From NCBI GenBank assembly GCA_000817105.1, contig JUEP01000005.1:62001-126000 (forward strand): a DNA stretch of 64,000 bases. Direction: 5' to 3'. Positions 10,580-25,081 of this stretch are shown piece by piece. Numbering within the stretch: position 1 is the stretch's first letter; each line of letters starts with the position of its first letter. The notes beneath the pieces are model-generated. The model had not been told where the DNA came from. It worked only from the letters and a program-made list of their open reading frames with translations, and did not search any database. A program made the position numbers and the translations under genes. The DNA comes from a marine actinobacterium MedAcidi-G3 (GTDB taxonomy: Bacteria; Actinomycetota; Acidimicrobiia; Acidimicrobiales; Poriferisodalaceae).

Positions 10580-12226
10580 TTAGTTTAGAGAACTATCTAC
10601 CTTCGCGCGGTGTCGGTAGAGCGCATAAATCAACGCGTCTCGAAGAGCAAGCCAAGAAGCTTCAATAATGTTTCCGGACACACCAATCGTTGTCCATGTT
10701 GCCTCTGAATCGCTACTATCCACCAAGACTCGGGTCACGGCTCCAGTTCCACGGTTTGTGTCAAGGACACGCACTTTATAATCAGTCAGATGCACCTCAG
10801 CTAGTTCGGGATAAATATCGATCACAGCATTTCTGAACGCGTTATCCAGAGCATTCACTGGGCCATCGCCCTCGCCGACGGTGATCATACGTTCGCCGCC
10901 CACATCTATCCGCAACGTCGCTTCGGTATCGAACTGCCTATCCTGACCTCGCTCAACTAGCACTCGGAACGATTCCACATTGAAATAATCAAACTGTTCG
11001 CCCGCAGCTCGTCTCATCATTAGTTCCAAAGAAGCATCAGCTACTTCGAAGTGGTAACCCTCATGTTCCAGCCGTTTCATTTCTTCCACGACCTCAACCA
11101 TTTGCTTATCTTCGATTTCGATACCCAACTGCTCGGCTTTTAATTCGACTGATGCTCGGCCTGATAAATCGCCTAGCAAGAATCTCGTGCTGTTTCCGAC
11201 CGCTATGGGGTCTACGTGCTCGTAACTGTCGGGGCGACGGGCAATGGCACTGGTGTGCAGACCAGCCTTATGAGCAAATGCTGAAGTGCCGACATATGGC
11301 TGTTGATGTTGTGGAGGCATATTCATTAATTCGGCCACATGGTGCGATACTGAGGTCAATCTCTCTATGTGATCTCTTGGCAGAGTCTCGATCCCCATCT
11401 TCAAACTCAGATTAGGCACAAGAACTGTGTTGTCACAGTTCCCCGTTCGCTCCCCGTATCCGTTGATTGTTCCCTGAACGTGCGTTGCTCCTGCAACTAC
11501 ACCTGCTACTGCATTAGCAACTGCGCAACCTGTGTCATTTTGGGTGTGCATTCCGATCTGGACACCATCGAAATGACGTACGACCTCTGCGACAATTTTC
11601 TCTACTTCGTGAGGCAATGATCCACCATTAGTGTCGCAAAGAACAAGGCAGTCGGCGCCTTGAACGGCTGCGGCTTCCAGAACCCTCAAAGAAAACTCGG
11701 GGTTGCGTTTATAGCCATCAAAAAAGTGTTCCGCATCAAAGAAGACACGAAGGCCTTCTGATTTCAAGAACTGCACGGAGTCACCCACCATTGCGACACC
11801 TTCATCCAAAGGTTGTCGCAAGGCTTCGGTGACGTGATAGTCCCAAGATTTACCGACTATGCACACAGTCGAAGTACCGGCTTGCACGAGAGAAGACAGT
11901 GTTTGATCTTCGTCCACTCGACCCCTAGGTCGACGTGTTGATCCGAAAGCTACAAGTTGAGAAGTCTTGAGTTCTAACTCACTAGTCGCGCGTTGGAAAA
12001 ATTCTTCGTCTTTGGGATTGGAGCCTGGCCATCCACCTTCAATCCAATGAACCCCGAGATAATCAAGCTGGCGAGCTACCTTCAGCTTGTCGTCGGAAGA
12101 AACCGATATGCCTTCAAACTGAACTCCATCGCGCAAGGTGGTATCAAAAATCTCGACCATTTCGGGCCAAGTCGAATCTCGAACACCTTGACGGTTCAGT
12201 GAAGGTTGCAGGCTGTCACTGGTCAT
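10580..12226 (-). CDS. cimA: (R)-citramalate synthase
   Basis: [54 protein letters not shown] and [12 protein letters not shown], characteristic of the CimA/TIGR00977 LeuA-like family. Confidence 0.92.
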
Positions 12227-13212
12227 TGAGCTACCTGAGAAATATTTTCAAGAATCGCAGACGCAATCTCGTCAGTAGTTCCTGTGCTTGGAATTCCTTC
12301 GCACGCGGCTCGCACCTTTTCTGCTGTATCTGCTTCACCTAAAAAGTCGAGCATCATCGCAGCAGACAAAACAGCTGCTGTCGGATTGGCTAGCCCCTGG
12401 CCCGCAATATCTGGAGCCGAACCATGCACAGGTTCGAAAAGCGATGGAGCCGTCCGGTCAGGATTGAGATTCGCTGAAGATGCGAGCCCTATTCCACCAG
12501 AAACCGCGCCACCAAGATCAGTCAAAATATCCCCAAACAAGTTGTCAGTAACGACAACTTCATAGCGTGTGGGGTCTTCAACGAAATAGATGCAAGCGGC
12601 ATCAACATGGTTGTAGGCGGTTTCAACGTCGGGGTATTCGGTTGCTACCTCTGCGAAAGTTCGTTCCCATAAGTCACCTGAAAACGTCAAGACGTTTGTT
12701 TTATGCACAAGTGTCAGGTGTTTTCTTGGCCGGTTTCGTGCTAACTCAAATCCGTACCGAATGCAACGCTCTGCGCCCTTTCGAGTGTTTACGGATCCTT
12801 GCGTAGCAATTTCGTGAGGGGTTCCTTTACGGAGGAAACCGCCCTCACCGGCATAGGTCCCTTCGGTGTTTTCTCTGATAACCACGAATTCGTGGCCATC
12901 AGGAAGAACAAACGGCCTCAAATTTACGTAGAGGTCGAGTTCAAAACGTGCTTTTAACAAGAGCCCCCTTTCGATTACTCCCGGTGGTACTTCAGGAGTG
13001 CCGACAGCTCCAAGCAAAATAGCGTCATAGGCGCGCAACTCAGCAAGCGTTTCATCAGGAAGGACAACGCCATCTTCCAGGTAACGAAACCCTCCCAACC
13101 GGAATTCGGTCGTGTCGAGCACCACACCCGCAGCTCTCATAACATCAAGGGCTACCGAGATTACTTCGGGCCCAATGCCGTCTCCTCCAATGACTGCAAT
13201 CTTATGAGGCAC
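12223..13212 (-). CDS. leuB: 3-isopropylmalate dehydrogenase
   Basis: [76 protein letters not shown]. Confidence 0.93.
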
Positions 13213-13283
13213 TTAATTTCTCCTAGTTCAGTTTTTAGCCAAAAGTTGTAGCAAAGGCTTGTTACAGCCCCAATAAAGCCAAA

Positions 13284-13304
13284 GACCGCCCCAAAGGGAC
13301 GGTC
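13284..13304 (-). terminator. Putative attenuator terminator upstream of leuB-cimA
   Basis: Minus strand GACCGTCCC-TTT-GGGGCGGTC (9 bp including one G-U), followed by TTTGGCTTTATT. Confidence 0.75.
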
Positions 13305-13308
13305 AATA

Positions 13309-13333
13309 AGCGCACACGTTAAACGCGTGCGCT
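13309..13333 (-). promoter_or_regulatory. Leader hairpin overlapping the leader-peptide stop codon (leuB-cimA attenuator)
   Basis: Minus strand AGCGCACGCGT-TTA-ACGTGTGCGCT, an 11-bp stem with one G-U. Confidence 0.75.
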
Positions 13334-13379
13334 ACGAAATAATAATGATGGCGTTCAGGTTTTCCCTCACACCCTCCAT
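13332..13379 (-). CDS. Putative leader peptide MEGVRENLNAIIIIS
   Basis: ATG GAG GGT GTG AGG GAA AAC CTG AAC GCC ATC ATT ATT ATT TCG TAG; four consecutive Ile codons next to the hairpin/terminator pair upstream of leuB-cimA. Confidence 0.72.
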   Translation of the reverse strand: MEGVRENLNAIIIIS

Positions 13380-13479
13380 TGTCGGCAACTTAAGGCGCTG
13401 CGTCAAACTGATTATTTGAGTTCAACGAGAAACTTGGTCTTCAGTTCATACCTCAACTTCAATTGGGTACGATTTAGCT

Positions 13480-24972: not shown

Positions 24973-24992
24973 ATGGCCCCCTAGGGGACCAT
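24973..24992 (-). terminator. Putative attenuator terminator upstream of ilvB
   Basis: Minus strand ATGGTCCC-CTAG-GGGGCCAT followed by TTTGCGTTTATGG. Confidence 0.68.
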
Positions 24993-25004
24993 CAACAAAG
25001 GGAT

Positions 25005-25032
25005 CGTAGTAACCGCTTACGTTGATACTACG
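25005..25032 (-). promoter_or_regulatory. Leader hairpin of the ilvB attenuator region
   Basis: Minus strand CGTAGTA...TACTACG; the leader TAG stop lies inside the 5' arm. ATCAAC (25026-25021) can alternatively pair with GTTGAT (24996-24991), which overlaps the terminator arm. Confidence 0.6.
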
Positions 25033-25081
25033 GGAAAGCGAGTAACGCCGGATCAGTCCTTATCAGATCGCACAAAACCAT
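25028..25081 (-). CDS. Putative ilvB leader peptide MVLCDLIRTDPALLAFP
   Basis: ATG GTT TTG TGC GAT CTG ATA AGG ACT GAT CCG GCG TTA CTC GCT TTC CCG TAG; 6 of 17 residues are Leu/Ile/Val. No clear Shine-Dalgarno. Confidence 0.5.
   Translation of the reverse strand: MVLCDLIRTDPALLAFP

Follow-up and report, generated by a model that had tools for sequence, protein, structure and literature searches.

In the window analyzed here, a 64,000-nucleotide stretch of the genome of the marine actinobacterium MedAcidi-G3, the minus strand between the divergent greA gene (13480) and leuB carries a -35/-10 pair, a short open reading frame and two hairpins. The first gene that this region would regulate, leuB (12223 to 13212, minus strand, with a GTG start at 13212), has a product that the NCBIfam models identify as 3-isopropylmalate dehydrogenase (PRK03437, score 473 against a cut-off of 393), and its stop codon overlaps the start of the second gene, cimA (10580 to 12226, minus strand), whose product is identified as citramalate synthase (TIGR00977, 675 bits against a cut-off of 450). 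The -35 box TTGACG (13401 to 13406) and the -10 box GACAAT (13378 to 13383) are separated by 17 nt on the minus strand; TTGAC is present in every relative whose sequence extends that far, and the -10 box is GACAAT, AACAAT or GAAAAT in relatives and TACACT-like in distant members. The putative leader peptide gene that follows (13332 to 13370, minus strand) runs from a GTG start to a TAG stop and would encode the 12-residue peptide MRENLNAIIIIS. Direct reading of the minus strand bears out the four consecutive Ile codons that the original prediction described, ATC ATT ATT ATT at 13338 to 13349 (codons -5 to -2, counted back from the stop), which are followed by a Ser codon and the TAG at 13334-13332. 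The A and G of this TAG lie within the 5' arm of an 11-bp hairpin (H1; 13309 to 13333, minus strand), also as predicted. A second hairpin, H2, has a 9-bp stem (13284 to 13304, minus strand) that its sequence and its compensatory changes mark as a putative intrinsic terminator, and it ends about 70 nt before leuB; the T-rich tail that was described for it is present (TTTGGCTTTATT; 13272 to 13283, minus strand), with a U-tract that is weak here and stronger in distant members. The leader RNA as a whole folds with z = -4.7, and none of 200 shuffled sequences was equally stable. We considered H1 as a second terminator and discarded this candidate, as no T-run follows it; a third hairpin past H2, seen by eye in several genera, was likewise discarded as inconsistent and lacking a T-run.

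The start codon is not the one first proposed. The original prediction had the Ile run and the TAG stop of the reading frame right but began it at an ATG at 13379, and we dropped this start because it overlaps the -10 box and is not conserved, being ATA in 5 of 19 relatives. What is conserved as a start is the GTG at 13370-13368 of the same frame (ATG in one relative), which lies exactly 7 nt after the -10 box in each of the 20 leaders compared. Over the whole order, 88 of 106 leuB-type leaders have a -10-like box 5-9 nt before an in-frame ATG or GTG, compared with 1 and 6 for the other two frames. A start 7 nt past the -10 box, together with this frame-specific spacing, makes it most likely that the leader mRNA is leaderless, and the peptide is probably translated from an mRNA that starts at or next to GTG 13370. 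Leaderless leader peptides have been reported in Streptomyces lividans (PMC8079986), and the C. glutamicum ilvBNC leader is likewise reported to be leaderless (PMC11857589). One relative (L002, from genome G001) has two consecutive TAGs, the first directly after IIII and the second in H1, and its reading frame is one codon shorter.

Distribution of the leader and conservation of its hairpins

A DNA search found the leader in 19 of 61 genomes, in four genera of the family, and a first covariance model built from these 19 family leaders had matches in 156 of the 397 genomes from the order. Outside the training set there were 147 order matches, every one of them directly upstream of leuB (107), ilvB (27) or cimA (13), and since all 147 stand before one of these three genes the element exceeds chance. 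A second model, built from 96 leaders, matched 206 of 296 genomes sampled from the class Acidimicrobiia, often twice per genome, and 54 of 397 genomes in a sample of the phylum, 27 of these being outside the class. Four of the phylum-level matches (L327, L328, L329 and L332) have no fitting peptide or gene, and we set them aside as probably due to chance. Among leuB loci with enough flanking sequence, cimA is downstream in 24 of 24 with the leader and in 30 of 54 without it, in a count that covered named genomes of Acidimicrobiales, Acidimicrobiia and Ilumatobacteraceae and in which the I/L/V codons helped to choose the leaders. Many Ilumatobacteraceae and their relatives (loci L084-L154) have no leader before leuB, some of them despite a cimA gene downstream, which suggests either loss or another regulator. 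With Rfam 15, at the gathering score, no leader was matched in the window, where the matches were tRNAs only, or in 20 related loci; a T-box or another leader known to Rfam was rejected for this lack of a match.

Within the family alignment H1 and H2 hardly vary. The order-wide alignment of 96 sequences, which was fitted to the H1/H2 structure before covariation was counted, has 98.3% of its cells paired and both-side changes in 18 of 19 pairs; cells with a double change in H1 or H2 number 240 vs 54 in shuffles, and paired cells fall to 32-45% in slid controls. Native duplex energies favored the two hairpins because their stems had been chosen sequence by sequence, and the evidence for covariation is therefore that of the family and order-wide alignments. 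Compensatory changes in both hairpins had been named in the original prediction as one of two observations that would support it, the other being conservation of the Ile run (below). The geometry of the two hairpins is also kept: TAG ends at the first paired column of H1 in 90 of 96 sequences, so that the stop codon stands at the base of that hairpin, the gap between H1 and H2 is 0-6 nt, and the distance from stop to H2 is 23-36 nt, with a median of 27, the whole of which is spanned by H1. In the credible members outside the class the stop-to-H2 distance is 25-41 nt and the H1-H2 gap 0-4. The tails are less uniform, for distant members have a true U-tract after H2 (GGGCGGTTTTTT) and those of the window and the focal family are T-poor. 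Most members of the order keep a U-G wobble within the H2 stem (family alignment columns 89 and 99) in place of the stronger G-C or U-A, a hint that the terminator is tuned.

Regulatory codons and the downstream gene

When leaders were picked solely by their stop codon and hairpins, Ile occupied codon -2 in 20 of 20 focal-family, 98 of 106 leuB-type and 13 of 13 cimA-type leaders, and the focal leaders have Ile at codons -2 to -4 in 20 of 20. The 27 ilvB-type leaders have mostly Leu or Val at codons -5 to -2, with Leu in 15, Ile in 6 and Val in 4 at codon -2. Codon -1 is unconstrained, with Pro, Arg, Val and Ser among its residues. ATT and ATC both encode the Ile residues of these leaders, and the use of both codons points to selection on the amino acid. 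Outside the class, in a leader set that the I/L/V codons helped to choose, the same layout is found before ilvB, leuA (peptide MSQNLLLT) and leuS (peptides MKPFSCSLLLT and MKEISAPTATLLLT), the genes being confirmed by NCBIfam; the Leu-codon leaders from other classes of the phylum are L325, L331 and L324, two of them before leuS and one before leuA. A leader ending in VLLIT and the stop, with both H1 and H2, is also present at locus L315, where it unexpectedly precedes a prephenate dehydratase gene. The window holds a second such region on its minus strand, at 24975-25073, before its ilvB gene (ATG at about 24890), with its own leaderless leader, a stop-anchored hairpin and an H2-like hairpin. 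Relatives of this ilvB leader encode peptides ending in FLVV(P/S)(A/T) and the stop; in this genome a TGA after six codons breaks the reading frame, the Leu codon is CCC and the first hairpin is weakened, which could be due either to decay or to an error in the MAG.

This match of codon to gene is the strongest evidence, from sequence comparison, for amino-acid sensing. The region might instead contain a constitutive 5'-UTR terminator that senses no amino acid, with a short reading frame kept for some other reason, for example as a micropeptide; we consider this highly improbable, as the leader residues vary freely except at codons -5 to -2, where they are conserved and switch with the downstream gene, from Ile at cimA to Leu or Val at ilvB and Leu at leuA and leuS. 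The conserved Ile-codon reading frame, the position of H2 between that frame and leuB, and the promoter upstream of the leader are all features of an attenuator. The original prediction of an isoleucine-sensing attenuator of leuB-cimA thus gains comparative support from codon conservation, both hairpins and gene association, and we put at roughly 80% the probability that the leader is an Ile-responsive ribosome-mediated transcription attenuator; its transcription start site, its translation, termination at H2 and the response to Ile itself are what we infer from these comparisons. The weak U-tract in the window and the many leuB-cimA relatives without a leader count against this reading.

Ribosome position, base pairing and a possible mechanism

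The original prediction had reported no obvious 2:3 antiterminator, and we agree, since none is detectable across the family by crossed duplexes or by masked folding. Native pairs had no advantage over species-crossed duplexes for the H1 3' arm with the H2 5' arm (2:3), the H1 5' arm with the H2 3' arm (1:4), the leader with H2, or the loops with any partner. Indeed, 2:3 pairing is weaker than in shuffled sequence, at -2.4 vs -5.0 kcal/mol in the focal family and -1.5 vs -4.8 kcal/mol in ilvB leaders. When folding was masked for a ribosome at each of codons -5 to -2 and at the stop, H2 had a mean probability of 0.88-0.98 throughout, and H1 was closed with the ribosome at codons -5 to -3, half open at -2 and open at the stop. 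In these models the position of the ribosome over the regulatory codons decides the state of H1, and RNA pairing alone does not relay that state to H2. The prediction of H2 in every ribosome position also weighs against the main reading itself, as ordinary RNA folding yields no regulation.

These results bear on whether the leader could be a classical attenuator with three structures, in which a 2:3 antiterminator, or a leader coding segment paired with the H2 3' arm, would replace the terminator. Such a model has been proposed for M. tuberculosis ilvB1 (PMC13236596) and C. glutamicum ilvBNC (PMC11857589), and some leuB-type sequences allow an imperfect duplex between the H1 3' arm GGTGTGCG and CGTCCACC of H2, so that a 2:3 antiterminator looks plausible by eye; however, it fails both the crossed-duplex and the masked-folding tests. 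For the focal family, GGCGGTC in the 3' arm of H2 is a possible partner of the leader segment TGACCGCC, but this pairing came from one minimum-energy fold, it is not conserved in the window (where it is broken, the sequence being GAACGCC) or in the genome G008, and a ribosome stalled on the Ile codons would cover the segment. We therefore regard a three-structure attenuator as improbable.

How a stalled ribosome might act on H2 with no exchange of base pairs is suggested by work on E. coli, in which a terminator is repressed by a ribosome standing at an upstream stop codon as long as the two are no more than about 27 nt apart, the ribosome keeping the hairpin from completing inside RNA polymerase (PMC4824070). 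In a scheme of this kind, the leuB-cimA attenuator would read charged tRNA-Ile. Transcription would begin at GTG 13370 or right beside it. A ribosome would translate MRENLNAIIIIS from the 5' end of the message. With ample Ile it would pass the four Ile codons and reach the UAG at the base of H1, H2 would form, and RNA polymerase would stop about 70 nt before leuB; with Ile scarce it would stall on the Ile codons, and more polymerases would continue into leuB-cimA. A stall at codons -5 to -3 would keep H1 closed, so that its 22-33 nt would drop out of the distance and leave an effective gap to H2 that we estimate at 15-20 nt (9-15 nt to the stop, plus the spacer), a gap so short that H2 would be unable to complete within the polymerase. 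A ribosome at the stop would open H1 and give back the full 27 nt or so, and H2 would form. The two hairpins alone could in this way turn starvation into readthrough, and plenty or a lack of translation into termination.

We hold this distance-switching step of H1, which is drawn by analogy, to be possible though somewhat doubtful: its yardstick is an E. coli measurement made with another terminator, and in our models H1 is already half open when the ribosome stalls at the best-conserved Ile, codon -2. Our wider proposal, offered tentatively, is that stop-anchored H1 abutting a terminator constitutes an antiterminator-free two-hairpin attenuator in which a stalled ribosome blocks H2 by proximity, and that this attenuator may be ancient and widely used for ilvB, leuB-cimA, cimA, leuA and leuS, both in Acidimicrobiia and in some other classes of actinobacteria. 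The Ile codons might also sense Ile with H1 serving as a polymerase pause hairpin or as a brake on the ribosome, and induction would then be kinetic, through Rho or through mRNA decay. H1 is indeed strong, conserved and just upstream of H2, and the T-poor tails of H2 in the focal family would suit such a model; the full U-tract of distant members does not, and a pause hairpin would leave unexplained why H1 always abuts H2. We think this rather unlikely.

Relation to known attenuators

The leuB-cimA leader thus provides a named candidate regulatory element for the branched-chain amino acid genes of a large and mostly uncultured actinobacterial class. In the open-access literature searched, we found no attenuator of citramalate synthase, for which this one would apparently be the first to be described, and none of any kind in Acidimicrobiia. 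It offers a case of one leader scaffold retuned by codon swaps to different amino acids, a help in assigning function (Ile in front of cimA, Leu in front of leuA and leuS), and the lack of an antiterminator turns a long-standing uncertainty over actinobacterial ilv leaders into a testable question, namely how a stalled ribosome could avert termination with no alternative pairing.

We class the leuB-cimA leader as a variant of the leader-peptide attenuator and not as the classical trp/his type. It shares with the enteric trp, his and ilv attenuators a short leader reading frame with regulatory codons near its stop and a terminator beyond it; those systems use a 2:3 antiterminator exclusive with the terminator, whereas at leuB-cimA no covarying alternative was found and H2 is present in all modelled states. 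The M. tuberculosis ilvB1 leader also has an upstream reading frame with four branched-chain codons and an intrinsic terminator before the structural genes, and its induction is lost when the codons are mutated to Ala (PMC13236596). That leader is 166 nt long with a proposed terminator-exclusive antiterminator, in contrast to leuB-cimA, where none is detectable and the leader would lie at the mRNA 5' end. The Corynebacterium ilvB-II/ilvBNC attenuator (PMC10272879, PMC11857589) resembles ours in having a leader peptide at or next to the transcription start and two hairpins, P1 and P2, with P2 as the terminator, but in ilvB-II the upstream reading frame is inside P1 and the P1 loop pairs with the 3' side of P2 in a P1-P2 pair exchange; the leuB-cimA reading frame just ends at the base of H1, the H1 loop does not covary with H2, and no exchange was found. 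The ilvB, leuS and trp leaders of Actinobacteria (PMC1262725) and the leader peptides of S. lividans (PMC8079986) have the same short leaderless reading frames, runs of I/V/L codons and terminators, and the mode of regulation of the ilvB leaders was left unclear. No cimA or leuB-cimA target is reported in those studies, and we found no mention in them of a stop-anchored hairpin or of a reach into Acidimicrobiia. Finally, the proposed mechanism is like E. coli pyrBI-type attenuation and the repression of nearby terminators by ribosomes (PMC4824070) in that terminator folding would depend on the proximity of the ribosome and not on an antiterminator; in the pyrBI type the distance is set by the progress of the ribosome, whereas at leuB-cimA a hairpin would shorten and restore that distance, and the signal would be a single amino acid.
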